Below are positions 1,190 through 37,412 of a stretch of 64,000 nt of DNA, one piece after another; positions within the stretch are counted from its first letter, which is position 1; the number at the start of each line of letters is the position of its first letter. The notes under the pieces were generated by a model. The model searched no databases. It was not told the DNA's origin and saw only the letters and a list, made by a program, of their open reading frames with translations. The stretch is taken from assembly GCF_009833085.1 (NCBI RefSeq), contig NZ_QRBZ01000026.1, positions 62,001 through 126,000 on the forward strand, given 5' to 3'. The stretch is from Nitrosomonas oligotropha (GTDB taxonomy: Bacteria; Pseudomonadota; Gammaproteobacteria; Burkholderiales; Nitrosomonadaceae). A program made the position numbers and the translations under genes.

Positions 1190-4100
1190 TTGGAAAACAC
1201 ACTCATTCCCTACCAAGCTGTTAGAACAATCCCTGGTAATTGCGCACTCGTATTTGCTCCTCACCCCGACGATGAAGTATTCGGTTGTGGCGGAGCCATT
1301 ATGCGCCACGTTGAACAAGGCATTCCTGTTCACGTTATCGTAGTATCCGATGGCGCTTATGGTGCAAGCGAAGAGACAAAAGCTGAATACATTCTGCAAC
1401 GTCAACAGGAGAGTGTGGCCGCAGCTGAGATACTTGGCTATGGCGCACCGGTTTTCTGGCAACACCAGGATCGGCAAGTCTGCTATGGCGAGAAACTGAT
1501 TCAGGAAATTCTAACCGCCATCCGTGAAACCGGCGCCGATCTGGTTTATGTCCCATCGGTTTTTGAAATGCACCCGGATCATCGCGCGCTGAGTATGGCA
1601 GTCATTGAAGCTGTCAGACGCATTGGCGATACCGTCAATATCGCGTTGTACGAAGTCGGCATTCCATTGCCCCCCAATCGGTTACTCGATATCAGCGATT
1701 TGGTTGCACGTAAGGCCGCCGCAATGGCCTGCTTTATTTCACAGAATACAAAGCAGCGTTACGATCAGCATATTGCGTCGCTGAATCACTACCGCACTTA
1801 TACGCTGCCGGCCGATGTCACCGCGGCAGAAGCCTACATACTCCTTTCCGCGCAAGAGTTAGCGAACGATCCGCTCAAACTCTATCAATCCGAGCACACC
1901 CGCCAAAAATCACTGGGACTTCCGCTGGATGGCAGCGATCTGCCACTGGTCAGCGTCATTATCCGCAGCATGGATCGGCCCACGTTGTCCGATGCACTGG
2001 ACTCCGTGGCTTTGCAGACTTATCAGCATATCGAAGTGGTGGCAGTAGACGCAAAGGGGGAAGGTCACCGGAAACTGGACGAATGGTGCGGGCGCTTTCC
2101 ACTCAGAACCATTGAAAATGGTGCGCCGTTAGATCGGAGCCGGGCAGCCAACATTGGATTGCATTCAGCGCAAGGAAATTATCTGATTTTCCTCGATGAC
2201 GATGATTTATTTTATCCGGAACACATCGCCAATCTAGTTACTGCGCTACAAAATCATCCCGGCGTTCGATGCGTATACTCTGGCGTTCGCGTTGAGCACT
2301 ATGTGGATTGGCGACTTCAGGAAGTCACTGCATTTAACGAACCTTACGATCAGCGCCGTCTTTTGGGCAGAAACTTTATCCCGATTCATGCCATGCTGTT
2401 TGAACAGTCTTTAGTCACGCAAGATCATTGCTGTTTTGATGAAAACCTGCAGGTATTTGAAGATTGGGATTTCTGGATTCAAGTCGCACAGCACAGCGAA
2501 ATATTGCATATCGACAACATTACCGCCATTTACCACAATTATGGACACTCCGGCTTAGGACTCCAGCAAGATAAAACTTTTCTAAAGGAATCGAGAAGCA
2601 AAGTTTACGATAAATGGAAAATGCTGCTGACCGGTAAGCAATTGGAAGATTTAATTGAATACCGTGAAGACTTGATATCCAGCTTTCGCAGCCAATTAGC
2701 GCATAGTGAACATTTGGGATTCAATCTTCGCAATCAGTTAGCGGATAATGAGCATTTGATATCCGGTCTTCGCAATCAGTTAACGGAAAGTGAACACTTG
2801 ATATCCGGTCTTCGCAACCAATTAGCTAGTTGTGAACATCAGTTGGCCGATAACGAGCATTTGCTCGCTTCACTACACAGTCAACTGACACAAAACACAA
2901 TTGCCAGTACGCAGCGTGAGCAATCCCTGCAAGCAATTATCAGCGATCTACAAAAAACAATTCATGACCTATTCCACTCAACCTCATGGAAAATCACGGC
3001 CCCTTTCCGGTTCCTTGTTCGAATACTCCGTGGACAGCATCACGCTGCTTGGGATGGGGTACGGCGCAGAATTTTCCCGTTACTCAAAGCCATCTATTGG
3101 CAATTTCCGGCGCGATGGCGTAAACATGCATTGCATATCGCTTACCGCATCGCCGGCCCACTGTTCTCCGGGATAGGACACTATGAAACATGGCGTACAA
3201 GCAAGGCCGTTCATTCGACCCCAGGGACTGTGGATTCCTATGGCACTCCGGCAGGCATGGTGGATCTTTCCACGATTGCACCGCTAGCAACACCGCCAGC
3301 CGGACGCATTGCGATCCACGCACATATTTTTTACGCGGATCTGGCAGCGGAATTTGCAAGCTATCTAGGTAACATGCCTTTTCCATATGACTTGTTTATC
3401 TCAACGCCCGATGAGGCAACAAGCCAAATATGCCAGCGTGCTTTTTCTCGTTTGCCGCACTTAGGGCAATTAATCGTCACTATCGTACCCAACCGCGGAC
3501 GCGATATCGCCCCCATATTTTGCACTTTTGGCGCAGCGCTGCAAGAATATGATTATATAGCGCATATTCATAGCAAGAAATCGTTATATACCAATGGCGC
3601 AGCCGATGGCTGGCGCGAATATTTGTTGACCCATTTATTGGGCAGTCCGTTACAAATCCAGAAAATCTTTTCATTGTTAACCGGTGACAAAAATACCGGC
3701 TTTATTTATCCGCATAATTCAACCGTTCTGCCTTATTGGGCCAATACTTGGCTCTCCAATAAAACCAACGGATATATTCTGTGTAAAAAACTGGGCATCG
3801 CCGATTTTCCAATCGGTTATTTTGACTTCCCGGCTGGATCGATGTTCTGGGCGCAATCCAAAGCATTGCAACCGTTATTCAACGCTCATCTTAAAATCGA
3901 AGATTTTCCCGAAGAAGCCGGACAAACCGATGCGACACTGGCGCATTGCATTGAACGCTTATTCGTCCTGGTCACCCGGAAATCCGGCCATAATGCGGTC
4001 ATTCTCTGGGATAAACCATCGAATCACTGGTCTCGCTGGCGCATTGACCAGTACCTGTCGCACAAACCGGAAGACATCCATACTCAACTCAAAAACCCCG

Positions 4101-5914
4101 CCATACGCCTGGTAGTATTCGATATATTCGATACATTGATCACGCGTCCGCTACTGGATCCTGAAAGTATCAAGCACATCGTCGCCCGGCGTGCCGGTGG
4201 CCAGGCAGGTCAGCTTTATCTTGAATTCCGCGCCGCAGCAGAAAACGAGGCGCGCCGGATTGCAGGATACGATGTTGGTCTGGATGCCATTTTTGAACAA
4301 TTCGCGGCCTTGTCCGGCCTTTCAGCAGGCGTCGTTGAAGAAATCTGCGAACTTGAGAAAACCATCGAGCTGGCAATCGTGTCACCCCGCCCGGAAACAA
4401 TTGCCTTATTTAAACTCGCTATCAATCTCGGCAAACGCGTCGTTCTTGCCAGCGACATGTATCTACCCAGGTCCGTCATTGAAACCATGCTGACGCGCTG
4501 TGGAATCGAGGGATGGCATAAGTTTCACTTATCTTCCGACAATCGGTTGAGAAAAGATACCGGTCATTTTTACCGCCAACTCCTGGCGGAAGAAAATGTA
4601 TCTCCCCATGAAATCCTGGTCATCGGTGATAACGAACATTCCGACGTGCAAATACCGGTCGATATGGGATTTAGAACCCTACATGTTATGCGCCCTGTCG
4701 AACTTGCGCGGGCAACTCCGCGTTTTGAACCGGTTATCGAACGAGCTCTCTATCGGAATGCCCGGAATGACCTGAATAAGCAGCTTACACTCGGAATCAT
4801 CACACAAGGCAACTTCCATCCCGTGTTCTATCCCCGCTTCGATCCGGCCGACTTTGTTCCCGCTTCACCCTGGGCGATTGGATTCACCATCGCGGGTCCC
4901 CTGGTACTGTCTTTCGTGCAATGGTTAGTTAAAAAAGCGGCAACCGATGGCATGAAACGGTTATATTTCCTCGCACGTGAAGGTCAAATACTCAAAATAG
5001 TTTACGATTTGTGGGTATCCGGTCAGGCGGATGCTGTTGCATCTGAATATCTGGTGCTCTCACGCCGCGCAATCACGGTGCCGATGATTTCGAATCTGGA
5101 CGATATTTTCAAAATCGCATGTACTCACTATGCGCCCAACCCAATGCCGGATTTTATTTTTGAGCGGTACGGGTTAAGACTATCAGACGAAGAGTGTCAG
5201 GAATTGGCGCACCGCAAAATATGGCCAATGGAAAAAATGGTTGCGGTTGAAGAAGAAAATATCGACCATCTGAAACCGCTTTTGCAAGCACTCGAAGCGC
5301 GAATCCTGAATCAGGCTGAACAAGAACGCCCCGGATTAATGGCCTATTTGCATCATCTTGGATTACACAAAGACTCGGCTGCCGCCATTGTCGATATTGG
5401 TTATGCGGCGACAACACAAAAACGCCTCAATCAACTTCTGGGACAAAAAATACATGGCTATTATTTAATGACACTTGATTCTGCAGAGCAGGTTGCTTTG
5501 AAACATCAGGTCATTGCACAGGGCTACTATTGTCATTATGCTAAACCGACTGCTACCGAACCAATCATATATAGAAAAAGTTTTACAATTGAAAAATTTC
5601 TAAGCGCCGATGACGCGCAAGTAGTGTGCTACAGAAAAACCAATTCAACCGGTATAACACCCGAATTCCGCGAACAATCGCATGAAGAACGTCAAACTGC
5701 GGCGGTGCGCGCGGAAATCCGGCGCGGCATTCTGGATTTTGTTAACCAATCAATCAATCTGAGAGATAACTTATTAACCGATTTTGAAGTACCCGGAGAA
5801 ATTGCGGAGGATCTTTTCTTGCAGTTTATTAAAAACCCTTCTGGATCCGAAACTGATTTGCTGCGCACATTAGTATTGGATGATTATTATTATGGCCACG
5901 GTCTGGTGCGTTAA
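1190..5914 (+). CDS. Multidomain glycan enzyme: PIG-L deacetylase / GT2 / coiled coil / RgpF-like / HAD
   Basis: This 1574-residue cytoplasmic protein fuses several surface-polysaccharide modules. Residues 1-230 are a PIG-L/LmbE-type N-acetylglucosaminyl deacetylase with the zinc motif HPDDE at 25-29 and a second HPDH near 127. Residues 250-480 are a family 2 glycosyltransferase with the acidic FLDDDD motif near 335. Residues 492-547 are four 14-residue repeats in a coiled-coil stretch reaching to about 600, followed by the TSWKITAP motif often seen near the end of such transferases. Residues 705-960 resemble the rhamnan synthesis F (RgpF) domain. From 975 there is a HAD domain with motif I DIFDTL (978) and motif IV GDNEHSD (about 1146). 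The last 370 residues carry the FLAREG motif often found next to such HAD domains. The start is TTG: the in-frame stop TAG at 1178-1180 excludes anything longer and the next ATG (residue 39) would delete the zinc motif. It heads the glycan cluster. The domain order is seen; the substrate is unknown. Confidence 0.9.
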   Translation: MENTLIPYQAVRTIPGNCALVFAPHPDDEVFGCGGAIMRHVEQGIPVHVIVVSDGAYGASEETKAEYILQRQQESVAAAEILGYGAPVFWQHQDRQVCYGEKLIQEILTAIRETGADLVYVPSVFEMHPDHRALSMAVIEAVRRIGDTVNIALYEVGIPLPPNRLLDISDLVARKAAAMACFISQNTKQRYDQHIASLNHYRTYTLPADVTAAEAYILLSAQELANDPLKLYQSEHTRQKSLGLPLDGSDLPLVSVIIRSMDRPTLSDALDSVALQTYQHIEVVAVDAKGEGHRKLDEWCGRFPLRTIENGAPLDRSRAANIGLHSAQGNYLIFLDDDDLFYPEHIANLVTALQNHPGVRCVYSGVRVEHYVDWRLQEVTAFNEPYDQRRLLGRNFIPIHAMLFEQSLVTQDHCCFDENLQVFEDWDFWIQVAQHSEILHIDNITAIYHNYGHSGLGLQQDKTFLKESRSKVYDKWKMLLTGKQLEDLIEYREDLISSFRSQLAHSEHLGFNLRNQLADNEHLISGLRNQLTESEHLISGLRNQLASCEHQLADNEHLLASLHSQLTQNTIASTQREQSLQAIISDLQKTIHDLFHSTSWKITAPFRFLVRILRGQHHAAWDGVRRRIFPLLKAIYWQFPARWRKHALHIAYRIAGPLFSGIGHYETWRTSKAVHSTPGTVDSYGTPAGMVDLSTIAPLATPPAGRIAIHAHIFYADLAAEFASYLGNMPFPYDLFISTPDEATSQICQRAFSRLPHLGQLIVTIVPNRGRDIAPIFCTFGAALQEYDYIAHIHSKKSLYTNGAADGWREYLLTHLLGSPLQIQKIFSLLTGDKNTGFIYPHNSTVLPYWANTWLSNKTNGYILCKKLGIADFPIGYFDFPAGSMFWAQSKALQPLFNAHLKIEDFPEEAGQTDATLAHCIERLFVLVTRKSGHNAVILWDKPSNHWSRWRIDQYLSHKPEDIHTQLKNPAIRLVVFDIFDTLITRPLLDPESIKHIVARRAGGQAGQLYLEFRAAAENEARRIAGYDVGLDAIFEQFAALSGLSAGVVEEICELEKTIELAIVSPRPETIALFKLAINLGKRVVLASDMYLPRSVIETMLTRCGIEGWHKFHLSSDNRLRKDTGHFYRQLLAEENVSPHEILVIGDNEHSDVQIPVDMGFRTLHVMRPVELARATPRFEPVIERALYRNARNDLNKQLTLGIITQGNFHPVFYPRFDPADFVPASPWAIGFTIAGPLVLSFVQWLVKKAATDGMKRLYFLAREGQILKIVYDLWVSGQADAVASEYLVLSRRAITVPMISNLDDIFKIACTHYAPNPMPDFIFERYGLRLSDEECQELAHRKIWPMEKMVAVEEENIDHLKPLLQALEARILNQAEQERPGLMAYLHHLGLHKDSAAAIVDIGYAATTQKRLNQLLGQKIHGYYLMTLDSAEQVALKHQVIAQGYYCHYAKPTATEPIIYRKSFTIEKFLSADDAQVVCYRKTNSTGITPEFREQSHEERQTAAVRAEIRRGILDFVNQSINLRDNLLTDFEVPGEIAEDLFLQFIKNPSGSETDLLRTLVLDDYYYGHGLVR
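2663..2830 (+). repeat. Four tandem 42-bp repeats encoding 14-residue coiled-coil units
   Basis: Units begin at 2663, 2705, 2747 and 2789, each 42 bases, encoding units such as NEHLISGLRNQLTE and SEHLISGLRNQLAS (residues 492-547 of the large glycan enzyme). Units 3 and 4 are nearly identical at DNA level, which points to recent tandem duplication. Fourteen residues equal two heptads, so the array should lengthen a coiled coil between the GT2 and RgpF-like parts. Copy number could vary between strains. Confidence 0.85.
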
Positions 5915-6037: not shown

Positions 6038-8143
6038 ATGACCAAATTATTCAAATACGTTCCAGCCGCAATAAACATTCTAAGAACACAAGGATTACGT
6101 GCGTTACTCACTCGAATCTACAAAAAGTGCTTTTCCACCCCTCAGATAGCCCCTCCACAGAAAAATGATTATGCAATAGCAACCCGCTATCACCCGCTTA
6201 GTTTTCCAGAGACCACCCATCCCGATATTTCCATTATCATCCCGGTTCACAACAAACATTTGTACACTTTCACCTGCCTTAAATCGATTTATGAAAACAG
6301 TGCGGACAGCACCTATGAGGTGATTGTCGTGGATGATGCATCAACCGATGAAACCGCCAGGATGCTCAATAACATCAAAGGAATTACAGTCATCCACAAT
6401 ATAGAGAACAAAGGATTCATCTATTCTTGCAATGCCGGGGTTAATGCCGCAAAAGGGCGTTTTATCGTACTGTTGAACAACGATACCATTGTCACTCGCG
6501 GCTGGTTGAACGGGTTAACAAACACATTCTCGGATTTTCCCGATGCCGGCTTGGTGGGAGTCAAACTGGTTTATCCCGATGGGAAGCTGCAAGAAGCGGG
6601 AGGTATCGTGTGGCATGATGCTTCAGCCTGGAATTATGGGCGCAGCGATGATCCGGAAAAACCGGAATATTCCTATTGCAGGGCGGTTGATTATTGCTCG
6701 GGTGCTTGCTTAATGATTAAGCGGGAGGATCTTCTCGATCTCGGACTGTTGGATGACTACTATACCCCGGCTTATTATGAAGACACCGATCTCGCTTTCC
6801 GGGTCAGGAAGATTGGCAAGAAAGTGTACTATCAGCCCGCCGTCACGGTCATTCATTTTGAAGGCGTGTCTTCCGGAACAGATGTCACACAAGGCACCAA
6901 ACGTTATCAGACGGTTAATCATGAAAAGTTTTATCGACGCTGGCGCGAAACGCTGCAATCTCACCGCACCAACGGAGATATGCCCCATCTTGAGAAAGAA
7001 CGCGACGTCAGTAAGCGTGTGCTGGTCCTGGATGATCTGGTTCTAATGCCCGATAATGATTCCGGCTCATTACGCATGTTTAATTTATTGCATATTTTCA
7101 AGAAACTAGGATACAAAGTCAGTTTTATCGCAAAAACTCTTGCATACCATCCGGTTTATACGCGAAAAATGCAATCTATCGGTATCGAATGCTTTTATTT
7201 GCCTTATCTGGAATCGATTGATTCGCATTTGATGGCGCATGGGCATCTATATGATGTTGTATTAATCAGCCGGGTAAACGTCGCCGAGCAATTCATAGAT
7301 ACCGCAAAAAAATACTGCACAAATGCCATGATACTGTTCGATACGGTGGATCTGCATTTTTTGCGTGAACAGCGGCAAGCATTGATCAATCAGGACAAGC
7401 AGCAACTGGCCGCAGCCGAAAGACTAAAATTGCAGGAATTGAGCACTGCGCGTAAAGCGGATAAAACATTATTGGTCAGCCCGGTGGAAATTGAATTGTT
7501 TAAACAAGAGGCTCCCGATGTTCCGGTAGCGCTATTATCGAATATTCATCAAAACCAGGAAACTGTTTACGGATATCAAGAAAGAAAAGATATTCTGTTT
7601 ATCGGCGGCTTCGAGCACCGGCCTAATGTCGATGCCATGGAATTTTTTATTAATGAAATTTTCCCGATACTTCATTCATTAAAAACGGATTTAAAACTTT
7701 TGATTATCGGCTCCAATATTCCCCCAAAAATTGCCGCTCATGCGTCTTCGCATATCATTATCAAGGGCTTTGTATCAGACATAAAGCCAATTTTTGATCG
7801 TATCAGACTATCTATCGCCCCCATTCGTTATGGCGCTGGCGTTAAAGGCAAAATCAACACCAGCATGACGTACGGTGTGCCGGTAGTTGCAACCACTGTG
7901 GCAGCCGAAGGAATGAATCTCACGCACGATAAAGACATCCTGATTGCGGACACTCCGGAAGGCTTCGCCAAGCAAATTGTCCGCGCATACGATGATGAAC
8001 AATTATGGACAAGTTTGTCCAATGCCGGAAAAGTTAATATCGAGGAGCATTTTTCATTTGCTGTTGCCGAACGCCAACTGCGCACTATTCTGCAAGATGG
8101 CCGGAATTCCAAGAATACGGCCAATCAAGCAATGAATGCTTGA
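6038..8143 (+). CDS. Two-domain glycosyltransferase (GT2 + GT4-like)
   Basis: A 701-residue cytoplasmic enzyme for surface glycan assembly. Residues 60-300 form a GT-A family 2 transferase: ISIIIPVHNKH at the start, VVDDASTDET for nucleotide binding, a LLNNDT motif in the metal-binding position and a YEDTDLAFR segment near the acceptor site. From about 325 a GT-B, family 4-like domain follows, with a C-terminal PIRYGAGVKGK donor-binding segment near 590. The protein could therefore add two different sugars in sequence. No strong Shine-Dalgarno sequence precedes the ATG. It lies 123 bases after the large fusion gene and in the same direction, so it is probably in the same operon. Donor and acceptor sugars cannot be read from sequence. 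Confidence 0.9.
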   Translation: MTKLFKYVPAAINILRTQGLRALLTRIYKKCFSTPQIAPPQKNDYAIATRYHPLSFPETTHPDISIIIPVHNKHLYTFTCLKSIYENSADSTYEVIVVDDASTDETARMLNNIKGITVIHNIENKGFIYSCNAGVNAAKGRFIVLLNNDTIVTRGWLNGLTNTFSDFPDAGLVGVKLVYPDGKLQEAGGIVWHDASAWNYGRSDDPEKPEYSYCRAVDYCSGACLMIKREDLLDLGLLDDYYTPAYYEDTDLAFRVRKIGKKVYYQPAVTVIHFEGVSSGTDVTQGTKRYQTVNHEKFYRRWRETLQSHRTNGDMPHLEKERDVSKRVLVLDDLVLMPDNDSGSLRMFNLLHIFKKLGYKVSFIAKTLAYHPVYTRKMQSIGIECFYLPYLESIDSHLMAHGHLYDVVLISRVNVAEQFIDTAKKYCTNAMILFDTVDLHFLREQRQALINQDKQQLAAAERLKLQELSTARKADKTLLVSPVEIELFKQEAPDVPVALLSNIHQNQETVYGYQERKDILFIGGFEHRPNVDAMEFFINEIFPILHSLKTDLKLLIIGSNIPPKIAAHASSHIIIKGFVSDIKPIFDRIRLSIAPIRYGAGVKGKINTSMTYGVPVVATTVAAEGMNLTHDKDILIADTPEGFAKQIVRAYDDEQLWTSLSNAGKVNIEEHFSFAVAERQLRTILQDGRNSKNTANQAMNA

Positions 8144-8189: not shown

Positions 8190-9200
8190 ATGACTCTTAC
8201 GCAGAACCCTTTTATTTCTGTCATCGTCGTCAACTACAATTCCGGAGAGATGCTGTCCAAAGCGTTGTCCGCATTAGCGGAGCAAACTTACGCAAATTTT
8301 GAAGTCGTTGTAATCGATAATCACAGCATGGATAATTCCTGGCAAGCGGCCGAGAAAACAAACTTCCCATGCCGCCTTGTCCGCCTCAACGAAAACACCG
8401 GTTTCGCAGCTGCAAATAACCTCGCTGTAGCGGATTATATTCAAAGTGATTGGATTTTTTTTCTGAACCCCGATGCTTATCCTGAGCCGGAATGCCTGGA
8501 AGTAATTGTAAAAAATATTAATCGGATTCCGGACGTCGATTGTTTTGCCTGTGCACTGATTGACGCGAATAAGCCATCTCACTTGGATGGGCTGGGCGAT
8601 GCTTACCACATATCCGGATTACATTGGCGCAGCGGCCATGGATACCCTTGCGATATCACTCCCAATCAGCCGGTAGAGATTTTTTCAGCATGTGCAGCTG
8701 CGGCAATATACCGCACCGGAACATATCGCCGGTTAGGTGGCTTCGATGAAGCTTATTTTGCTTACTCTGAAGATGTCGATCTTGGTTTTCGTCTGCGGCT
8801 TATTGGTGGTAAAAGCTTGTTACTACCCGATGCTAAAGTCCATCACGTCGGTTCAGGTATCACAGGAAGCTCGAGCGACTTCTCTGTTTATCATGGGCAT
8901 CGTAACTTAACCTGGACATTTATCAAGAATATGCCCAGTCCGCTCATTTTTATCCTCTTGCCGGTCCATCTAGCCATGATTCTTTACGTGGGATTTTTTT
9001 ATGCTGCTTCTGGCCGTCTTAGGCTTTATTTGCAAGCTAAAATCGATGCCTTTAAGCATATCGGATCATTATTGAAGGAAAGAAAAAAAATTCAGAGTCA
9101 GCGGGTCTGTTCTAGCTTAAGCTTGCTGCAATTGATGGCTTGGCTGCCGCGCAGAACTGTTATTAAAGCACCGGCTAAACTAGAAAATACAACCCATTGA
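8190..9200 (+). CDS. Family 2 glycosyltransferase (rhamnosyltransferase-like)
   Basis: A 336-residue GT2 enzyme. The N-terminus carries SVIVVNYNSGEML (from residue 10), a VVIDNHSMDNS nucleotide-binding loop and FLNPDA (about 93) in place of DXD. The YSEDVDLGFR segment near 193 corresponds to the usual acceptor/catalytic-base region of this family, also seen in dTDP-rhamnosyl transferases of the WbbL kind. A hydrophobic segment at about 252-275 suggests membrane attachment at the cytoplasmic face. It follows the GT2/GT4 gene by 46 bases and precedes another GT2 gene. The specific sugar is not known. Confidence 0.88.
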   Translation: MTLTQNPFISVIVVNYNSGEMLSKALSALAEQTYANFEVVVIDNHSMDNSWQAAEKTNFPCRLVRLNENTGFAAANNLAVADYIQSDWIFFLNPDAYPEPECLEVIVKNINRIPDVDCFACALIDANKPSHLDGLGDAYHISGLHWRSGHGYPCDITPNQPVEIFSACAAAAIYRTGTYRRLGGFDEAYFAYSEDVDLGFRLRLIGGKSLLLPDAKVHHVGSGITGSSSDFSVYHGHRNLTWTFIKNMPSPLIFILLPVHLAMILYVGFFYAASGRLRLYLQAKIDAFKHIGSLLKERKKIQSQRVCSSLSLLQLMAWLPRRTVIKAPAKLENTTH

Positions 9201-9274: not shown

Positions 9275-10216
9275 ATGCACGCTCCACAACAAATCTGCCA
9301 CAACATAAAAAAACGATGCACACAACCCATAACGGTAATAATCGTCAACTATAACGCCGGACGAATATTAACCCAGTGTGTTCAGGCCGTTTTGCAGCAA
9401 GTTCAGCAAGTCTTAGTCATTGACAATGCTTCATCTGATTCCAGTCTGTCAGAACTTGAATCCAGTTTTTCCGCAGACAATCACCTCCGGATAATCCGCC
9501 TCAATAGTAATGCCGGTTTTGCCGCCGGTTGCAACACTGGCTTTGGCGCAGCAACGCAACCCTATGTGCTTTTTTTGAATCCGGATTGTATTCTGCAGGA
9601 AAATTCACTGCAACGTATGCTGCAGGTAATGGAATCGGATCCTCGGATCGGCATGATTGGCGGCTATCTCATTAATCCGGATGGCTCCGAGCAAGGCGGC
9701 GGACGGCGCGCCATACCTACGCCATGGCGGGCTTTCGTGCGCGCCTTCGGTTTGCATCGTCTGGAAAAATATTGGCCGCAGCTGTTTTTTGATTTTCATC
9801 TGGATAAACAGCCTTTACCCCAAACCCCCATCGAAGTTGAAGCGATATCCGGTGCATTGATGCTGGTAAGGCGTCAAGCCATCGACGATGTCGGCCCCTG
9901 GGACGAGCACTATTTCCTGCATTGCGAGGACTTGGATTGGTGCATGCGGTTCAAACAAAAGAACTGGAAAATTGTTTTTGTGCCGGATGCGCCGGTTGTT
10001 CATTTCCAGGGAACCTGCAGCCGCGCCCGGCCGTACTTCGTTTCTTGGCATAAGCATAAGGGCATGCTGCGTTTCTACCGGAAATTTTTCCGTCAGCGCT
10101 ATCCCGGCGTATTAATGGGACTGATTACACTAGGTGTATGGCTGCGCTTCAGCGCCACAGTGCTAGTCTACGCGGCGCAAAATTGTTACCGGACGTTAAA
10201 ATTCAAGCATGAATGA
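9275..10216 (+). CDS. Family 2 glycosyltransferase
   Basis: A 313-residue GT2 enzyme similar in plan to the preceding gene: VIIVNYNAGRIL near residue 22, VIDNASSDSS, FLNPDC near 100 and HCEDLDWCMRF near 216. The last 25 residues are hydrophobic and could anchor it to the inner membrane. Its stop overlaps the start of the following SDR gene by eight bases, which implies translational coupling. It probably extends the same surface glycan. No clear ribosome-binding site is visible before the ATG. Confidence 0.88.
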   Translation: MHAPQQICHNIKKRCTQPITVIIVNYNAGRILTQCVQAVLQQVQQVLVIDNASSDSSLSELESSFSADNHLRIIRLNSNAGFAAGCNTGFGAATQPYVLFLNPDCILQENSLQRMLQVMESDPRIGMIGGYLINPDGSEQGGGRRAIPTPWRAFVRAFGLHRLEKYWPQLFFDFHLDKQPLPQTPIEVEAISGALMLVRRQAIDDVGPWDEHYFLHCEDLDWCMRFKQKNWKIVFVPDAPVVHFQGTCSRARPYFVSWHKHKGMLRFYRKFFRQRYPGVLMGLITLGVWLRFSATVLVYAAQNCYRTLKFKHE

Positions 10217-11099
10217 GCAACGCGTCGGATTGCTGGGTGCAACAAGCCTAGTGGGGGAATGCTTAATCAGGAAGCTGATCGAGAATCACTGGCATATCAG
10301 CGCATTTTCCCGTCAGCACATTACAACCGCAGCAAACCACCCGCAAATCACGTGGCAGCAATTTGCTACAATGGATAGCGCAAAGGTTTGCAATGAAAGC
10401 GATAAAATCCGCGCTTGGTTATGTGTGGCGCCCATTTGGGTGTTACCCGGGCATTTCGATCTGTTATCGGCTTATGGCGCTCAACGGATCATCGTATTAT
10501 CCTCCACCAGCCGTTTCACCAAAAATACTTCATCCGATCCCGGCGAAAGGAAAATTGCACAACAGTTGATTAAAAGCGAAGAGTTACTGCAAACATGGGC
10601 TGCCGCACATGAGGTAGAATGCGTCATTTTGCGGCCGACGCTGATTTACGGATACGGGCGTGACAAAAACATTGCTGAAATTGCACAATTTATCCGCCGG
10701 TTTGGGTTCTTTCCTTTGTTCGGCTCAGCGAGCGGTTTGCGGCAGCCTATCCACGTGGAAGATGTGGCCGCTGCATGTTATGCCGTGCTGAGTAGGGAAA
10801 ATTTAAGCCGCCGGACTTACAACCTCAGCGGCGAGGAAACTTTGACCTATCGCGCAATGGTTGAACGCGTATTCGCGGCGATGCACCGTACTCCACGCAT
10901 GTTGACAGTGCCACTATGGCTTTTCCGGATCGCAACATGGGGACTGCGATGGCTGCCGAAGTACCGCAATTGGACCACGGCAATGGCGGAAAGAATGAAT
11001 CAGGATTTGAAATTTGACTGTTCCAAAGCCAAACGGGAGCTAGATTTTCTCCCTCGATCATTCAAACTGACGGCACAAGACTTACCCGATCAACACTAA
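10209..11099 (+). CDS. NAD(P)-dependent epimerase/dehydratase-like SDR
   Basis: A 296-residue protein of the extended/atypical short-chain dehydrogenase family. It opens with a GLLGATSLVG dinucleotide-binding loop and has LRPTLIYGYGRDKN in the middle and a RQPIHVEDVA segment typical of nucleotide-sugar epimerase-like proteins. A clear YxxxK catalytic pair is not evident, so it may be an atypical SDR. Its start overlaps the upstream glycosyltransferase stop (ATGAATGA), which ties it to glycan biosynthesis, for example in modification of a nucleotide or lipid-linked sugar (inference). Confidence 0.85.
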   Translation: MNEQRVGLLGATSLVGECLIRKLIENHWHISAFSRQHITTAANHPQITWQQFATMDSAKVCNESDKIRAWLCVAPIWVLPGHFDLLSAYGAQRIIVLSSTSRFTKNTSSDPGERKIAQQLIKSEELLQTWAAAHEVECVILRPTLIYGYGRDKNIAEIAQFIRRFGFFPLFGSASGLRQPIHVEDVAAACYAVLSRENLSRRTYNLSGEETLTYRAMVERVFAAMHRTPRMLTVPLWLFRIATWGLRWLPKYRNWTTAMAERMNQDLKFDCSKAKRELDFLPRSFKLTAQDLPDQH

Positions 11100-11182: not shown

Positions 11183-12979
11183 ATGAAGTTTAAATTTAAA
11201 GCGCCTCAGAATGAAATTGCGCAGGTACTGACCAGCTTTAAGAAGACCTTTAGAAACATTGGTGTTTTTAGCGCGGTCATCAACATGCTGATGCTCATGC
11301 CGGCCATTTACATGCTGCAACTGTATGACAGCGTACTAACCAGCCGCAATGAAATGACTCTGTTGATGCTGACATTGATCATGTTAGGCGCTTACATTTT
11401 CATGGGCGCGCTGGAATTCGTCCGCAGCTTTGTATTGATCCGTGTCGGCGCGCAACTCGACATGAAGTTGAACAAGCGCGTTTACACCGCCGCCTTTGAG
11501 GAAAGCCTCAAAAAAGGCGATGGCAATGCCGGGCAAGCTTTGAAAGATCTGACCAATCTACGGCAATTCCTGACCGGCAATGCCTTGTTCGCTTTTTTTG
11601 ACGCACCATGGTTTCCGATTTATTTGTTCGTGATTTTCATGTTTCATCCCATTCTGGGGGGGTTCGCCTTATGCGGCACGGTCATCTTGATTGCATTAGC
11701 GTACATCAATGAGAAAATCTCGCATAAACCGCTCGCCGAAGCCAACTCGATGTCGATTGCGTCCAGCAATATCGCCTCCAACAATTTGCGCAATGCCGAA
11801 GTCATCGAAGCGATGGGCATGCTGCCCAATCTCCAAGCGCGCTGGTATAAGCTGCATCGCCGTTTTCTCAATCTGCAAGCCGAGGCCAGCGAAAAATCCG
11901 GCATCGTCACCGCGCTGTCAAAATCGTGTACCGTCGCATTACAGTCGCTGATGCTGGGATTAGGCGCTTTATTGGTGCTGGATAACAGCATCACACCGGG
12001 CATGATGATCGCCGGTTCCATCTTATTGGGCAGAGCCATCGCACCGGTGCAGTTACTCATCAGTGTATGGAAGCAGATTGGCGGCACCCGCAGCGCTTAT
12101 GAGCGTCTGACACAATTGCTTGAGCAGAATCCGGAACGAACGGCTGGCATGGCGCTGCCTAAACCGCTCGGCGTGATTGCAGTGGAAAATGTCACTGCAG
12201 CCCCGCCCGGCAGTAAAGTTCCCGTCATCAAGGGATTGAATTTTTCCCTCGCTGCCGGTGAAGTGCTCGGCATTATCGGCCCGAGCGGATCGGGGAAATC
12301 AACTCTGGCGCGCTTATTGGTCGGCGTGTGGCCGGCAGCGGCGGGGAAAGTCCGCTTGGATGGCGCCGATGTTTATCTATGGAACAAGGACGAATTGGGC
12401 CCGCATATCGGTTATCTGCCGCAGGATATCGAACTCTTCGCTGGCACGGTTTCGGAAAATATCGCCCGCTTTGGCGAAATCAATGCGGAAAAAGTTATTC
12501 TGGCAGCCAGACGCGCCGGGGTTCATGACATGATCCTGAATATGCCGGAAGGTTACGACACGCATCTGGGTGACGGCGGCGCCGGTCTTTCCGGCGGACA
12601 AAAACAACGCATCGGCTTAGCGCGCGCCATGTATGATGATCCATCCCTGATTGTTCTCGATGAACCCAATTCAAACCTGGACGATGTTGGAGAACAGGCG
12701 CTTCTGGCCGCCATCACCGATCTGCGCATACGCGGCAAAACCATTGTGTTGATCACACACCGCACCAGCATTCTCAGTGTAACCACTAAATTGCTGCTAT
12801 TGCAGGACGGCGCAGCAAAAATATTCGGGCCGACCAATCAAGTGGTAGAGGCGCTCGCAAAGCAACAACAAGCGCATCAGGCGCAGCTGGCGCAAAAGAA
12901 AGCCGAGCAACAAGCTGCGCAAAATCCAGTGCCCCCAGCACCTTCAACCACGCCTACGGCCGACTCTCAAACCGGCTAA
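11183..12979 (+). CDS. Type I secretion ABC transporter (permease-ATPase, PrtD family)
   Basis: A 598-residue inner-membrane exporter half-transporter. Residues 1-300 are the transmembrane domain (the N-terminus with MPAIYMLQLYDSV and DAPWFPIYL is characteristic of PrtD/AprD/HasD-type permeases). The ATPase domain has Walker A GPSGSGKST near 365, the signature LSGGQKQR near 468 and Walker B LIVLDEP near 489. A Gln/Ala/Pro-rich tail of about 50 residues follows. With the next two genes it makes a complete T1SS that moves unfolded substrates straight from cytoplasm to the outside. There is no N-terminal C39 peptidase domain, as expected for RTX-type substrates with uncleaved C-terminal signals. 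No substrate gene is seen in the window. Confidence 0.95.
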   Translation: MKFKFKAPQNEIAQVLTSFKKTFRNIGVFSAVINMLMLMPAIYMLQLYDSVLTSRNEMTLLMLTLIMLGAYIFMGALEFVRSFVLIRVGAQLDMKLNKRVYTAAFEESLKKGDGNAGQALKDLTNLRQFLTGNALFAFFDAPWFPIYLFVIFMFHPILGGFALCGTVILIALAYINEKISHKPLAEANSMSIASSNIASNNLRNAEVIEAMGMLPNLQARWYKLHRRFLNLQAEASEKSGIVTALSKSCTVALQSLMLGLGALLVLDNSITPGMMIAGSILLGRAIAPVQLLISVWKQIGGTRSAYERLTQLLEQNPERTAGMALPKPLGVIAVENVTAAPPGSKVPVIKGLNFSLAAGEVLGIIGPSGSGKSTLARLLVGVWPAAAGKVRLDGADVYLWNKDELGPHIGYLPQDIELFAGTVSENIARFGEINAEKVILAARRAGVHDMILNMPEGYDTHLGDGGAGLSGGQKQRIGLARAMYDDPSLIVLDEPNSNLDDVGEQALLAAITDLRIRGKTIVLITHRTSILSVTTKLLLLQDGAAKIFGPTNQVVEALAKQQQAHQAQLAQKKAEQQAAQNPVPPAPSTTPTADSQTG

Positions 12980-13039: not shown

Positions 13040-14392
13040 ATGAAGCTTGCAGCTGAAGAGAAAAAGACCGTTATTGAAAATGTTCCCGCCGATTTATCCC
13101 ATCAGGTTGACACCGATGAGACACTCCATACCAAATTGGGCTGGTGGATCGTTCTGGCAGGCTTTGGCGGATTTATTCTATGGGCATCTTTCGCACCGTT
13201 GGATAAAGGCGTGCCGGTTCCCGGCACGGTCACGGTCGCCAGTCATCTGCAAGCGGTCCAGCATCAAATCGGCGGCATTATCGACAGCATTCTGGTGAAG
13301 GAAGGAGAGCATGTTGCGGTTGGCCAAGTTTTAGTCCGGATGAATGATGTTCAGCTCAAAGCACAAGCTGAAATCACCCGCAGTCAACTGTATACCGCGC
13401 GCGCAGTGGAAGCGCGTCTATTGGCGGAGCGCGATGGCCGCAAGGAAATCACTTTTCCGCAAGACTTGCTCACATCCCAGCATGATCCACGCATCGCCAA
13501 TAACATCATCACTCAGAACCAATTATTCACATCGCGCCAGTTAGCCTTGCATCATGAAATCGCGGCACTGGAAGAAAATATTGCAGGCTCAAGAATGCAA
13601 TTGCGCGGGCTGGAAGCATCCAGAGCCAGTAAAAATGCGCAATTGAAATTTCTGGAAGAGCAGCTTGTCAATCTGCGCGACTTGGCGCAGGATGGTTTCG
13701 TCCCGCGCAATCGCGTGTTGGAACTCGAACGCACGTATACCCAATTGACCGGGGAGATTTCTGCGGAAACCGGTAATATCGGCCGCATCCAGCGCCAAAT
13801 AGCCGAACTGGAGCAACGGCGCATTCACCGCCAGCAGGAATACCAGAAAGAAGTGCGGCAACAGCTATCCGATATCAAACGGGAAATTGATTCTTTAAGC
13901 AGCCGCCTGAGCGGACAGGATTTTGAACTGGCCAATGTGGAAGTCAAAGCACCTGTCGACGGTTTTGTGGTCGGTATGAACGTTTTTACCGAAGGCGGTG
14001 TGATTAGCCCGGGATTTAAGCTCATGGATATCGTTCCGAGCGATGATATGCTGATCATTACCGGACAAGTGCCGGTTCATCTGATTGACCGGGTGCACGT
14101 GGATCTTCCTGTCGATCTTATTTTTTCCGCGCTCAATCAAAAGCAAACCCCTAACATACCGGGCACCGTCACTCAGGTATCGGCGGATCGTCTTATGGAT
14201 GAACGCAGCGGGCTTCCGTTTTATAATATCAAGGCCAAGGTTACACCGGAAGGCATGAAAAAGCTGACCGATCAACAAATACGCGCCGGCATGCCGGTGG
14301 AAATATTCATTAAAACCGGTGAACGCTCGCTGATGAGCTATCTCTTCAAACCGATCCTGGATCGCGTTCACTCGGCCTTGAGTGAAGAATAA
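13040..14392 (+). CDS. Type I secretion periplasmic adaptor (HlyD/PrtE family)
   Basis: A 450-residue membrane fusion protein. A single transmembrane helix lies at about 34-52 (WWIVLAGFGGFILWASF), followed by a lipoyl/barrel-sandwich half (VPGTVTVASHLQAVQHQ), a long coiled-coil hairpin at roughly 110-290, the second lipoyl half (VKAPVDGFVVG) and a beta-barrel C-terminal part. It bridges the ABC exporter and the TolC-like channel. The start has AGGAAG at good spacing. It lies 60 bases after the ABC gene and 5 bases before the outer-membrane gene, so the three are surely one operon. Confidence 0.95.
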   Translation: MKLAAEEKKTVIENVPADLSHQVDTDETLHTKLGWWIVLAGFGGFILWASFAPLDKGVPVPGTVTVASHLQAVQHQIGGIIDSILVKEGEHVAVGQVLVRMNDVQLKAQAEITRSQLYTARAVEARLLAERDGRKEITFPQDLLTSQHDPRIANNIITQNQLFTSRQLALHHEIAALEENIAGSRMQLRGLEASRASKNAQLKFLEEQLVNLRDLAQDGFVPRNRVLELERTYTQLTGEISAETGNIGRIQRQIAELEQRRIHRQQEYQKEVRQQLSDIKREIDSLSSRLSGQDFELANVEVKAPVDGFVVGMNVFTEGGVISPGFKLMDIVPSDDMLIITGQVPVHLIDRVHVDLPVDLIFSALNQKQTPNIPGTVTQVSADRLMDERSGLPFYNIKAKVTPEGMKKLTDQQIRAGMPVEIFIKTGERSLMSYLFKPILDRVHSALSEE

Positions 14393-14397: not shown

Positions 14398-15753
14398 ATG
14401 TTAGATATCCGTAAAATTTTATTCTTAGCCGGGTTTTTCTTGAGCCCGATCAGCCATGGCCATGCAATGAGCCTCTTAGAGGCTTATGAAGCTGCATTGC
14501 TGCATGATCCGACTTATCGTTCCGCTTATCATGAAAATGAAGCCGGACAACAAGCCGAAGCCATCGGTCTGGCTAGCCTACTGCCTAATCTGACAGTCAC
14601 TCACACTCAAAGTAAAAGTGCGGGAACCATATCAGGCGTACAGAGAGATAACAGAGGAAATGCGGTCCCATTTTCCAATCCAGCCAATTTCGATAGTCAG
14701 ATCAGCACATTAACACTTCGTCAGCCATTGATCAATTTGGAAGCGGTAGCCAGTTATCGCATCGGAAAAGCACAAGCTGATTCCAGCCGGGCAAAATTCA
14801 CCGGCCGCAGCCAACAGCTGGTTGTAAGGCTGGTAGAAGCTTACGTTGAGACTTTACTGGCGCAGGATCATGTCAAGCTCTCCGAAGCGCAACTGACTTC
14901 CCTTGAAGAATTGAAACGCGTCAATGAGCGTATGTTAATCAAGGGCGAGGGAACAACGACCGATGTGTTGGAAACACAATCGAAACACGCCATAGCACAA
15001 GCACGTGTTATCGAAGCCAATGATGAACTGGAAGGAGCTCAACTTAAACTGGAAGCCATCATCGGGCAAAAAATAAACCAGTTGGATCGATTGTCCGATG
15101 CGTTTAATACGCGCGCCATTCAGTTGCAAGATTATGACAGTTGGTACGCTCTGGCGCTGGAACGCAATGCCGAGCTGGTGACACAGCGCCATGCGGTAAC
15201 ATCCGGTAAGGAAGAAATCAGAAAGAGTTTTGCCGGACATACACCGCGTGTCGATTTAGTCGCTAGTCTAACCAAGAATAATCGTGGATCATTCGTCACA
15301 CTGAATCAAGACGCCGAACTTGGCACTATCGGTGTCGAAGTTAATCTTCCTTTGTATGCGGGTGGCCGAGTGAATGCGCTCACGGCTCAGGCTAAAGCGA
15401 ATCACGCACGCGCGGAAGCGGATCTCGACGCGGTAACCGACAAAGTACTGGTCGAATTGAAAAAACAACACAACCTATTAAAAAGCGGCGTCAAAAAAAT
15501 TGAATCATTGGAACTGGCCGTCAAGTCGGCTGAACTGCTGGTCGAAGCGACAGAAAAAAGCATTCGTGGCGGTATCCGCATCAATCTGAATCTTTTGGAT
15601 GCGCAACAACAACTGTATACCGCACAACGCGATCTTTCCCGGGCGCGGTTTGATTATCTGCTGGCCTATCTGCGCTTGCAGTTAGCAGCAGGCACGCTGG
15701 CGCTGGATGATTTAAGAAATATAGCCAGCTATTTCAAAGCCGGCTTGCGTTGA
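14398..15753 (+). CDS. TolC-family outer membrane channel of the type I secretion system
   Basis: A 451-residue outer-membrane efflux/secretion protein. Residues 1-23 are a Sec signal peptide ending SHGHA. The mature part has the internal duplication of long amphipathic helices typical of TolC: LLEAYEAALLHDPTYRSA at the start, LRQPLINLEAVASY before the first barrel half, and VNLPLYAGGRVNALTAQAKA before the second. It forms the trimeric exit duct of the T1SS encoded just upstream. The gene starts five bases after the adaptor stop. Having its own dedicated TolC suggests a committed protein exporter rather than a drug pump. Confidence 0.95.
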   Translation: MLDIRKILFLAGFFLSPISHGHAMSLLEAYEAALLHDPTYRSAYHENEAGQQAEAIGLASLLPNLTVTHTQSKSAGTISGVQRDNRGNAVPFSNPANFDSQISTLTLRQPLINLEAVASYRIGKAQADSSRAKFTGRSQQLVVRLVEAYVETLLAQDHVKLSEAQLTSLEELKRVNERMLIKGEGTTTDVLETQSKHAIAQARVIEANDELEGAQLKLEAIIGQKINQLDRLSDAFNTRAIQLQDYDSWYALALERNAELVTQRHAVTSGKEEIRKSFAGHTPRVDLVASLTKNNRGSFVTLNQDAELGTIGVEVNLPLYAGGRVNALTAQAKANHARAEADLDAVTDKVLVELKKQHNLLKSGVKKIESLELAVKSAELLVEATEKSIRGGIRINLNLLDAQQQLYTAQRDLSRARFDYLLAYLRLQLAAGTLALDDLRNIASYFKAGLR

Positions 15754-16509: not shown

Positions 16510-17151
16510 ATGAACAAGAAAATATTGGCCAATATCACCGCACTGGTAATTCTGAGTGCGGCAAGCAGCGCATATGCCGCTCTCACTCCGGACAGCTATA
16601 ACATGCTGAACGGCAACACCGGCAGTTATAACTACTGGGATGAAACCTACAGTGGGGCTGGTTGTGTGACATGTGATAATGCTGCACTGTCTGGCGGCCG
16701 TGGCGATCTGACCGATGGAATCATTGCGGCCGACAATTGGTTTGTCACTGAAGCGCCCGCCGGCAATGGCCCCTATGTCGGCTGGACTCTGGATCCGACC
16801 ATCACCTTTCACTGGAATGCACCTGTCAATGTCAGTTCCGTCACTTTTCATTTTGATGACTCAAATGGCTCCGGTGGCGTCAGTGCACCAGCAAGCGTGG
16901 ATGTGAACGGGATCAATTTCCCCATTTCGGATCCTGCCGGTTCTGCGCCATTCGCTTTTGTAGCAAATGGTTTATCGTTCACAGGTAACGATCTGTCTGT
17001 GACAATCCATAGAAGTAATGCATGGGTTTTCCTGAGCGAAGTCGAGTTTAACGTTACACCGGTTCCGGAACCCGAAACATATGCGATGTTACTGGCCGGC
17101 TTAGGCTTGATTGGTTTTGCCATCCGCCGTAGAAAAGCAGAGGCTGTTTAA
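16510..17151 (+). CDS. PEP-CTERM sorting-domain exported protein
   Basis: A 213-residue extracytoplasmic protein. Residues 1-23 form a Sec signal peptide (MNKKILANITALVIL...AYA). The C-terminus has the full PEP-CTERM signal: VPEPETYAMLLAGLGLIG, then RRRK. Exosortase EpsH/XrtB-type enzymes recognise this in bacteria that make extracellular polysaccharide. The mature part is rich in Gly, Asn and aromatic residues and probably forms a beta-sandwich; it contains one CxxC (CVTC). A GGAG ribosome site precedes the ATG by eight bases, and a strong terminator follows, so it is likely monocistronic. No exosortase gene lies in the window. Confidence 0.92.
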   Translation: MNKKILANITALVILSAASSAYAALTPDSYNMLNGNTGSYNYWDETYSGAGCVTCDNAALSGGRGDLTDGIIAADNWFVTEAPAGNGPYVGWTLDPTITFHWNAPVNVSSVTFHFDDSNGSGGVSAPASVDVNGINFPISDPAGSAPFAFVANGLSFTGNDLSVTIHRSNAWVFLSEVEFNVTPVPEPETYAMLLAGLGLIGFAIRRRKAEAV

Positions 17152-35428: not shown

Positions 35429-36007
35429 ATGAAATATTACGATCGCTGCTGGTTATCTCTTTTGATATTCCTGCCCTTGCTGACGGGGTGTGTACCCATG
35501 TTTGCCATCGGCACCGCAGCAGGAACAGGAGCATATATCTCTGAAGATCGCAGAACCAGCGGTATGTTCATCGAAGATGAAGGTATCGAACTGAAGAGTG
35601 CACGGCGCATTCACCAGCAATTTGGCGATAAAGTGCACATCAATATCACCAGCTATAACCGCATGGTTCTCTTGACCGGCGAAGCCCCCTCAGAGGACAT
35701 CAAGACGGATATCGGAAAACTTGTGATGGGCGTTGATAACGTGCGCAGGATTTTCAACGAAATTGCGGTGGCCGGACACACTTCATTAGCCTCCCGCAGC
35801 AATGACACGCTGCTGACCTCCAAAGTGAAAGCACGCTTTCTTGCGGAACGGAAATTTCAAATCAATCACGTCAAGATTGTGACTGAAAATGAAGTCGTTT
35901 ATTTGCTCGGCGTAGTGACACGGCAGGAAGCGGATAACGCTGCGCAAATTGCCAGTTCTACTTCAGGTGTTAAGAAGGTCGTAAAAGTATTTGAATATTT
36001 GAATTAG
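35429..36007 (+). CDS. BON-domain lipoprotein (DolP/OsmY-like)
   Basis: A 192-residue outer-membrane-associated lipoprotein. The lipobox LLTGC puts the lipidated Cys at 21. Two BON domains follow at about 50-118 (VHINITSYNRMVLLTGEAP) and 125-190 (VKARFLAERKFQINHVKIVTENEVVYLLGVV). Dual-BON lipoproteins such as DolP support outer-membrane integrity and bind anionic phospholipid. The ATG has a GGAG-type site (ACGGAGTGGAAAA). The gap to the FAD-oxidase gene is 22 bases, so they may be cotranscribed. Confidence 0.93.
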   Translation: MKYYDRCWLSLLIFLPLLTGCVPMFAIGTAAGTGAYISEDRRTSGMFIEDEGIELKSARRIHQQFGDKVHINITSYNRMVLLTGEAPSEDIKTDIGKLVMGVDNVRRIFNEIAVAGHTSLASRSNDTLLTSKVKARFLAERKFQINHVKIVTENEVVYLLGVVTRQEADNAAQIASSTSGVKKVVKVFEYLN

Positions 36008-36029
36008 GCAATCAGGTCATTAATTAAAC

Positions 36030-37412
36030 ATGCTACCGGAAAATCTGCTGGTTGAGTTACATGCGGCATTCCCGCCGGAACGATTTTATACCGACCCAGT
36101 GGATTGTTACGCATATGCGTATGACAACAGCCGCAAGATTTTTCCTCCCGATGCCGTGCTGTTTCCGCTCACCACCGCAGAAGTAAAACACATCGTAACC
36201 CTCTGCAATCGCTATCGAGTGCCGCTCATTCCACGTGGACGTGGTACCGGAACAGCGGGCGGTAGTTTGCCGGAGTTAGGCGGTATAGCGTTGTCGATGG
36301 AACGCATGTTGAATATTATTTCAGTTGATCCCGCTAATCGGGTAATTGTTGTAGAACCCGGCGTATTGAATCAAGCCGTGCAAGATGCAGCAAAGCCGCA
36401 TGGTTTTTTCTGGCCGCCGGATCCTTCCAGTGCGATGTTCTCGACTGTCGGCGGAAATATCGCAACCGGTGCGGGCGGACCACACGCTGTCAAATATGGC
36501 ACAACCCGGGAGCATGTTCTAGGTTTGAAAGCCGTCACTGCTGCAGGCGATTTTATTACCACCGGCTGCTATACCACCAAAGGGGTTGTCGGCTATGATC
36601 TCACGCGGCTATTGATTGGTTCGGAAGGCACACTGGCTGTAATTACGGAAGCGACGCTTAAACTGACTGCATTACCTGGCGCCGTTGCCGGCATCACAGC
36701 GCATTTTCGTGATTTAACGAGCTGTACAGCTGCCATCGTTAAGATTATGGCACAACCGCAACTGCCTAGTGCACTTGAATTCTTGGATTCCGGCTCTCTG
36801 AATCTAATACGAGGGCGCTATCCCGACATGCTGCCGCTGAATACAAATGCCATGTTGATGATTGAGGTTGATGGTTTTCACAACGATATCGCCGATGCGA
36901 TAGCTGCCATTCTATCCGCTTGCCAATCGGACGGCTTGATTCACGCAAGTCGGGTCGAAAATACAGCCACATTATGGCAAGCGCGCAAAGCACTTTCACC
37001 CCTGCTGCGTGAAATTGCGCCGAAGAAAATCAATGAAGATGTTGTCGTACCCGTTAATACGTTGCCACAATTTCTGCATGGATTAACGCAATTAAGCATG
37101 CACTATCATCTACAGAATGTGAATTTTGGCCATGCTGGTAACGGCAACATCCATGTTAACCTGCTGATTAATCCTGATGATGCAGATGAAGTGGCACGAG
37201 CGGAACGTTGCTTGGATGAAATATTCGATTTAGTGATCAAGCTTCGCGGTACACTGTCAGGAGAACATGGCGTAGGCAGTGAGAAAAGAGCTTTTGTGAG
37301 CAAAGAAATTGATAGTGTGACTTTAGATTTAATGCGTAACATCAAACAACTGTTTGATCCCAACAACATTCTTAATCCGGGAAAATTATTTCCCGCAGCC
37401 GAACAAGTATAA
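36030..37412 (+). CDS. FAD-binding 2-hydroxyacid oxidase/dehydrogenase (GlcD family)
   Basis: A 460-residue flavoprotein. The N-terminal PCMH-type FAD domain has PRGRGTGTAGGSLPELGGI and PDPSSAMFSTVGGNIATGAGG. The C-terminal FAD-oxidase domain has NFGHAGNGNIHVN, the LSGEHGVGSEKR segment and ends with NPGKLFP. Family members are glycolate oxidase subunit GlcD and D-lactate dehydrogenases. No glcE or glcF lies nearby, which favours a single-subunit D-lactate or D-2-hydroxyglutarate type enzyme, but the substrate cannot be decided from sequence. Confidence 0.92.
   Translation: MLPENLLVELHAAFPPERFYTDPVDCYAYAYDNSRKIFPPDAVLFPLTTAEVKHIVTLCNRYRVPLIPRGRGTGTAGGSLPELGGIALSMERMLNIISVDPANRVIVVEPGVLNQAVQDAAKPHGFFWPPDPSSAMFSTVGGNIATGAGGPHAVKYGTTREHVLGLKAVTAAGDFITTGCYTTKGVVGYDLTRLLIGSEGTLAVITEATLKLTALPGAVAGITAHFRDLTSCTAAIVKIMAQPQLPSALEFLDSGSLNLIRGRYPDMLPLNTNAMLMIEVDGFHNDIADAIAAILSACQSDGLIHASRVENTATLWQARKALSPLLREIAPKKINEDVVVPVNTLPQFLHGLTQLSMHYHLQNVNFGHAGNGNIHVNLLINPDDADEVARAERCLDEIFDLVIKLRGTLSGEHGVGSEKRAFVSKEIDSVTLDLMRNIKQLFDPNNILNPGKLFPAAEQV

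Follow-up and report, generated by a model that had tools for sequence, protein, structure and literature searches.

A single gene of Nitrosomonas oligotropha appears to unite several activities of surface glycan synthesis in one chain, and the question was what such a protein might build and how. The gene lies in a window of 64,000 nucleotides, the whole stretch of DNA that was analysed (bases 62001–126000 of contig 26 of a 3.1-Mb genome), in which a reading frame for 1574 amino acids is open from a TTG start at position 1190 to position 5914 of the forward strand. Positions below refer to this window unless stated otherwise. A preliminary description had proposed that the chain joins a PIG-L, a GT2, an RgpF and a HAD domain and acts as a single enzyme for the assembly of a surface glycan. 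Pfam confirmed all four domains in the same order, and the further analyses supported the idea of a single assembly enzyme. The TTG start, which precedes EN-LIP, is retained in most of the full-length relatives that were checked.

About 26 of 85 Nitrosomonas genomes (counted from search rows) have the whole domain order within a single open frame, and 16 fusion loci were read directly. The nearest relative is a Nitrosomonas MAG, and its version of the protein shares 95% identity. An assembly artefact as the origin of the fusion was ruled out, because the same fusion recurs in many independent genomes. The full fusion was absent from all 40 searched genomes that belong to other Nitrosomonadaceae genera. 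According to the preliminary description, partial combinations are known but the complete order is not, and no characterised protein that possesses it was found; a literature search for the PIG-L/RgpF combination retrieved no paper, and broader searches retrieved no characterised equivalent. Several parts had escaped the preliminary description, i.e., a coiled coil (residues 482–596), an amphipathic segment (597–615), a gPRT domain (about 1215–1574), and a gene context with an exporter, a type I secretion system and an S-layer-like gene. Our reading of the protein, which we regard as rather probable, is that of a terminator, ruler and polymerase in one chain, serving an O-polysaccharide that is exported by an ABC transporter.

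The strongest assignment concerns the C-terminal part. A HAD domain of the phosphoribosyl-phosphatase (PRP) type comprises residues 972–1170 (positions 4103–4699, forward strand; Pfam match to residues 972–1154 with an E value of 4e-7). It is followed by a domain of the gPRT type, a ribofuranosyl-phosphate transferase (about residues 1215–1574; 4832–5911, forward strand). A phmmer search with residues 955–1574 retrieved PDB entry 7shg, a polysaccharide ribofuranosyl transferase of Thermobacillus composti (E 2.4e-19), and Bcs3, the capsule polymerase of Haemophilus influenzae type b (Hib) (E 4e-16; PMC10299916). The same two proteins were the best structural matches (VIA) over residues 971–1570 of a model that was built from 23 Nitrosomonas sequences (Bcs3 with a Z score of 22.1 and 383 aligned residues, 7shg with 19.9 and 390), with a large overall rmsd because the domain placement is uncertain, and with low model confidence in the gPRT part. 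The HAD motif is FDIFDTL, and FDIFDT is also present in 7shg and Bcs3. Bcs3 retains only the first of the two Asp residues of the HAD DxD, and so does the window protein, in which it is the nucleophile D978, which is invariant (23 of 23); in Bcs3 the catalytic D386 is situated in the same motif (PMC10299916). In the gPRT domain R1263, E1264 and D1402 are invariant, the catalytic residues D680 and E818 of Bcs3 align with E1264 and D1402, and both acids are also found at these positions in 7shg. In PRP-gPRT enzymes the gPRT moves Ribf-5-phosphate from PRPP, and the HAD domain (PRP) strips the phosphate (PMC11127046, PMC10299916). Residues from about 955 to 1574 are thus very probably a PRPP-dependent ribofuranosyltransferase composed of PRP and gPRT, and its HAD domain most likely strips the 5′-phosphate from the transferred ribose. 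In the preliminary description the HAD domain had led to the suggestion that the glycan perhaps contains phosphate, and this was dropped after the match to PRP-gPRT enzymes, which suggests that it points to ribofuranose instead. That it adds or handles a phosphate that remains in the glycan appears very improbable. Bcs3, a relative of this part, does make a phosphate-containing polymer, but that phosphate stems from a separate CDP-ribitol transferase domain, CroT, while the HAD domain (CrpP) removes phosphate (PMC10299916), and no CroT-like domain was detected in the window protein.

The RgpF domain (residues 705–932; 3302–3985, forward strand) is the presumed glycosyltransferase of the polymerase. 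The match to PF05045 reached 159.8 bits at a gathering cut-off of 25 (E 1.3e-46) and included only positions 270–501 of the 503 profile positions. In a structure search for the RgpF fold, the list was filled by the HAD domain and contained only weak matches of the GT-A type. RmlC is encoded elsewhere in the genome, which shows only that dTDP-rhamnose is likely available in the cell.

Between the N-terminal head and the polymerase the protein contains a long coiled coil with 14-residue repeats (residues 482–596; 2633–2977, forward strand), which is a candidate molecular ruler. In an AlphaFold model it consists of two long helices (482–538 and 549–596). Between the motifs SKVYDKW and STSWK the linker has 74–127 amino acids across 23 proteins, and its lengths fell only into the classes 1 and 4 modulo 7; these classes represent whole heptads or one stutter. 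The coils of close relatives differ by a single heptad, and in the 95% identical relative the linker is exactly one heptad shorter. Hydrophobic residues were concentrated at the a/d positions (65% vs 23%) in the window protein, and more weakly in some others. At the DNA level TRF detected a 42-bp tandem repeat (2664–2826, forward strand; 3.9 copies), which encodes pairs of heptads. Directly after the coil follows the basic amphipathic segment STSWKITAPFRFLVRILRG (residues 597–615; 2978–3034, forward strand), which has one of the highest hydrophobic moments in the protein and is a candidate membrane contact. The SWKIT motif is similar in the relatives from Citrobacter and Methyloprofundus. A layout of head, coil, and membrane contact or polymerase is common to the window protein, WbdD and ORF6 of Klebsiella pneumoniae O7 (PMC11231755), and in the window protein the long coil separates the N-terminal head from the C-terminal polymerase.

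The head is composed of PIG-L and GT2. The PIG-L de-N-acetylase domain (residues 1–235; 1190–1894, forward strand) yielded a Pfam match to residues 20–142 (E 1.1e-26), contains the motifs HPDDE (H25, D28) and HPDH (H128, H131), and its model resembles N,N′-diacetylchitobiose deacetylases and BshB. H25 is kept in 14 of 17 fused PIG-L domains and is replaced by Gln in the other three Nitrosomonas fusions (L007 201–4826, L014 9986–14590, L018 5967–10556). The two of these loci that have enough flanking sequence, L014 and L018, encode a second PIG-L with HPDDE, which suggests that PIG-L activity would be retained there despite the loss of H25 in the fused copy. The earlier assignment of sugar deacetylation to the chain was supported, with the zinc motif intact in most fused members. 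PIG-L is not always part of the fusion, and several species encode it in a gene of its own next to it. The GT2 domain (about residues 252–450; 1943–2539, forward strand) gave a Pfam match to residues 255–390 (E 6e-14) and was also recovered with the model and Foldseek; its LDDDD (335–339) and ED (424–425) are invariant in 23 of 23 rows. As the head contains no catalytic domain of a known terminator (methyltransferase, kinase or Kdo transferase), the protein was classed as working like the WbdD/WbbB kind, and not as a member of it.

The surroundings of the gene are conserved as well. The usual order in Nitrosomonas is a divergent S-layer-like gene, Wzm, Wzt with a Wzt_C domain, a methyltransferase/GNAT gene, the PIG-L-GT2-coil protein, variable glycosyltransferases, GT2b, an epimerase-like gene, and the ABC, MFP and OMP components of type I secretion. 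In the window the fusion is followed on the forward strand by a GT2-GT4 double glycosyltransferase (6038–8143), which is found downstream of the fusion in part of the loci, the glycosyltransferases GT2a (8190–9200) and GT2b (9275–10216, kept in nearly all loci), and a conserved NAD-dependent epimerase/dehydratase-like protein (10209–11099), all assigned by domain search and, from GT2a onward, by synteny. Then follow a type I secretion ABC transporter of the PrtD family (11183–12979; TIGR01842 with 770 bits at a cut-off of 510), a membrane-fusion protein (13040–14392; TIGR01843 above cut-off) and a TolC-like outer-membrane protein (14398–15753; PF02321, E 5e-48). Wzm and Wzt adjoin the fusion in most species. 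In the window genome the upstream block is located at C26:35937–43042 and comprises the S-layer-like gene (35937–38582), Wzm (39129–39962), Wzt (39901–41226) and the methyltransferase/GNAT gene (41219–43042); between this block and the fusion lie about 20 kb that encode a porin, TonB/ExbD-like proteins and a TpsA/TpsB pair. The pair consists of a 3464-amino-acid TpsA/filamentous-haemagglutinin-like protein and its TpsB partner (L082 3733–15766, contig C26, upstream of the window), and TpsA/TpsB are likewise present just upstream in L003. Wzt carries Wzt_C in this genome and in relatives, as in capped systems. In Nitrosomonas the head is consistently accompanied by a GNAT or methyltransferase-GNAT gene, and such genes also adjoin the heads of Desulfobacterota, Thalassolituus and L038.

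The S-layer-like proteins mostly have 740–1260 residues, are free of Cys and acidic, and have a conserved N-terminal third and a variable remainder. Of the 85 Nitrosomonas genomes, 70 have PIG-L and 74 the S-layer-like domain; both are present in 69 and absent from 10, and 6 are discordant (Fisher p 1e-8, with species relatedness ignored). The PrtD-type type I secretion system is linked to the S-layer-like gene. A comparison of the S-layer-like protein with PDB sequences, both as a single sequence and as a 12-row profile, gave no match and none to RsaA, and the protein of the window genome matched no family in Pfam, NCBIfam or PHROGs. In N. oligotropha Nm75 the gene is apparently split into two ORFs (L005 1843–4223).

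Several further genes were observed in the neighbourhood. A GT2-GT2-GT4 protein of about 1020 amino acids, the GT2 part of which is related to the GT2 of the fusion, is encoded on the opposite strand in many of the loci (L006 16937–20008, L009, L010, L016, L023, L103). A PEP-CTERM protein with a discoidin-like domain is encoded just 3′ of the type I secretion genes (16510–17151), and a PEP-CTERM relative is likewise near the fusion in L007. Export by PEP-CTERM/XrtA had been considered because of this nearby gene and was dropped, as conservation alongside the fusion was seen for the exporter Wzm/Wzt. Further downstream, cytochrome c oxidase and ATP synthase clusters are encoded on the reverse strand in a region with strongly negative GC skew (37496–59212).

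The head turned out to be combined with different polymerases. Within Nitrosomonas the same head is joined to PRP-gPRT only (L088), to GT2/GT4 modules (L089, L092, L094–L096), or to no polymerase at all (L090, L091, L102), and PIG-L is a separate gene just upstream in L004, L011–L013, L016, L020 and L103. A coil-RgpF-HAD-C-terminus part with 40% identity is encoded on plasmids of Citrobacter, Pantoea and Klebsiella, and the near-identity of the Pantoea and Klebsiella plasmid matches to the Citrobacter protein suggests that these may be mobile O-antigen genes. On the Citrobacter braakii plasmid pKAM621_3 (IncX5; L083) a gene cluster for a surface polysaccharide comprises rmlBADC, an ABC exporter and a methyltransferase-coil-RgpF-HAD-C-terminus protein. 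The plasmid pINp10 of a Methyloprofundus symbiont (L084) encodes a PIG-L-GT2-coil-WbsX-RgpF protein of 1327 amino acids, and the same record also has genes for an ABC exporter and for type I secretion. In Desulfobacterota, PIG-L-GT2-coil proteins are encoded near Wzm/Wzt. Among the Nitrosomonas proteins, GT2 identity was 69% within a polymerase type vs 50% between types, while PIG-L identity was 72% within vs 70% between, and for Wzt, Wzm and the type I secretion system the identities between and within types were equal. In the PIG-L tree the polymerase type changes six times and a single clade was rejected (p-AU 0.0005), while in the GT2 tree it changes once, with one clade at a support of 98. 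These identities and trees show that GT2 travels with the polymerase and that PIG-L stays with the locus. This pattern agrees with a GT2 that must recognise the polymer while it grows, and with a constant sugar as the substrate of PIG-L; it is by itself no proof that this sugar is the cap.

On this basis the following mechanism can be proposed, for which precedents exist for the combination of terminator, ruler and polymerase, for ribofuranosyl transfer and for S-layer anchoring (PMC11231755, PMC10299916, PMC11127046, PMC6978808). RgpF and the PRP-gPRT pair would extend the chain C-terminal to the coil, beside the amphipathic segment that possibly touches the membrane. The gPRT would transfer ribofuranose-5-phosphate from PRPP onto the chain, the HAD domain would then take off the 5′-phosphate, and RgpF would add another sugar, possibly rhamnose. 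Once the chain spans the coil, GT2 at its far, N-terminal end would add a terminal N-acetyl amino sugar, which PIG-L would de-N-acetylate and the methyltransferase/GNAT neighbour would modify at the freed amine. The C-terminal domain of Wzt might read the resulting cap as an export signal, and the finished chains would plausibly anchor the S-layer-like protein that is exported by the type I secretion system of the same locus. The idea of a de-N-acetylated and re-modified cap sugar was derived from the GNAT companion, from the logic of mycothiol synthesis, in which deacetylation (MshB) is followed by a new N-modification (MshC/MshD), and from gene order in Pseudomonas. In an LPS core locus of that genus a PIG-L gene is located between a glycosyltransferase gene and a GNAT gene (PMC8005017). 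By these analogies, this specific cap chemistry is a possible but tentative assignment. It is still somewhat more doubtful that a new termination chemistry licenses export and that a coil with a counted number of heptads, expandable via the 42-bp repeat, sets both chain length and S-layer stand-off.

The role of the head as cap maker was confronted with the fact that several species have a separate PIG-L preceded by a GT4, so that the cap need not come from this GT2. Also counting against the overall reading are the distance of about 20 kb between the fusion and Wzm/Wzt with the S-layer-like gene in the window genome, the missing PDB match to RsaA and the low confidence of the gPRT model. Within the head, GT2 could instead be a part of the polymerase, with PIG-L acting on a primer or adaptor sugar. 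The substrates of PIG-L itself, MshB and BshB are GlcNAc residues that have just been attached to a small acceptor. In the window protein PIG-L may act at the reducing end and deacetylate a lipid-linked GlcNAc primer or adaptor, with GT2 as a polymerase or adaptor transferase and a coil that only holds the modules together. This would agree with the position of the separate PIG-L genes after a BshA-like GT4 and with a PIG-L conservation that is independent of the polymer type, as a shared primer would give. We nevertheless regard it as unlikely, because PIG-L and GT2 are situated at the coil end at which all characterised terminators are found (PMC11231755), Wzt carries Wzt_C, and the variation of GT2 goes along with that of the polymer, as expected of an enzyme that recognises the polymer end, although the same would be true of a polymerase GT2 that acts internally. 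Similarly, the coil could be an oligomerisation tether, with the chain length fixed otherwise. Coiled coils of variable length are common, but this one sits between head and polymerase, is followed by the amphipathic segment, and changes its length between close relatives with preservation of heptads, all of which makes a mere tether improbable.

In Caulobacter RsaA binds the tip of the O antigen (PMC6978808), and in Aeromonas salmonicida the S-layer genes are found inside the cluster of an ABC-exported O antigen (PMC4483657). By analogy the Nitrosomonas glycan may anchor the S-layer-like protein, and we regard the chances for and against this as about balanced. Alternatively, the locus might produce a capsule, or a glycan that decorates a secreted protein, so that the type I secretion system and the S-layer-like gene would be neighbours for reasons of regulation or glycosylation and not because of an LPS anchor. 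This reading, to which we attach a rather low probability, is in line with the lack of detectable RsaA homology, with a locus devoid of a lipid-A ligase (a Wzy_C/ligase-like gene is located elsewhere), and with literature searches, which retrieved no electron-microscopy evidence for these species and no paper on an S-layer and type I secretion in Nitrosomonas. The two precedents speak against it, since RsaA does bind an O-antigen tip and A. salmonicida combines an S-layer gene, a secretion system and an ABC-exported O antigen in the same manner, and an anchor domain would fit the conservation of the N-terminal third next to a variable rest. If the reading as terminator, ruler and polymerase is true, a principle of enteric O antigens extends to an ammonia-oxidising genus that is central to nitrification and to Desulfobacterota, and a concrete, testable proposal is at hand for the construction of the outer coat in Nitrosomonas. 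The genus also offers a natural experiment with one head, many polymerases and a fixed locus, in which the coil lengths differ by single heptads.

Among known systems and on the proposed reading, the window protein has in common with ORF6 and ORF7 of K. pneumoniae O7 that one chain carries terminator head, coil and C-terminal transferases, that a ribofuranosyltransferase of the PRP-gPRT type takes part, that the polymer contains rhamnose and ribofuranose, and that Wzm/Wzt export it; the O7 proteins differ in a methyltransferase-kinase head, two GT2 polymerase modules and a ribofuranosyltransferase that is a separate protein (PMC11231755). In WbbB of K. pneumoniae O12, as proposed for the window protein, one polypeptide holds the polymerase, a ruler coil and the terminator, but WbbB has a Kdo transferase head and is devoid of PIG-L, RgpF, PRP and gPRT (described in PMC11231755). 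In WbdD of Escherichia coli O9a the coil is also placed between a capping head and a membrane or polymerase contact, while the head is a kinase-methyltransferase and the polymerase WbdA is separate (PMC3482155, PMC11231755). Bcs3 of Hib fuses a HAD phosphatase and a PRPP-dependent ribofuranosyltransferase into a multi-enzyme polymerase as well, but with ribitol-phosphate transferase and SH3b domains and without PIG-L, coil or terminator (PMC10299916). The IncX5 plasmid protein of Citrobacter, annotated as ‘rhamnan synthesis F family protein’ and not characterised as far as we found, resembles the window protein from the coil to the C-terminus and has an ABC exporter in its cluster, but a methyltransferase head replaces PIG-L-GT2. 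Tethering of an S-layer by an O antigen, as with RsaA of Caulobacter and the A-layer of A. salmonicida (PMC6978808, PMC4483657), is proposed here by analogy, and differences are that A. salmonicida uses type II secretion and that the PDB comparison detected no homology between the S-layer proteins. Within the known principle of terminator, ruler and polymerase, the GT2/PIG-L head would represent an unreported kind of cap maker.
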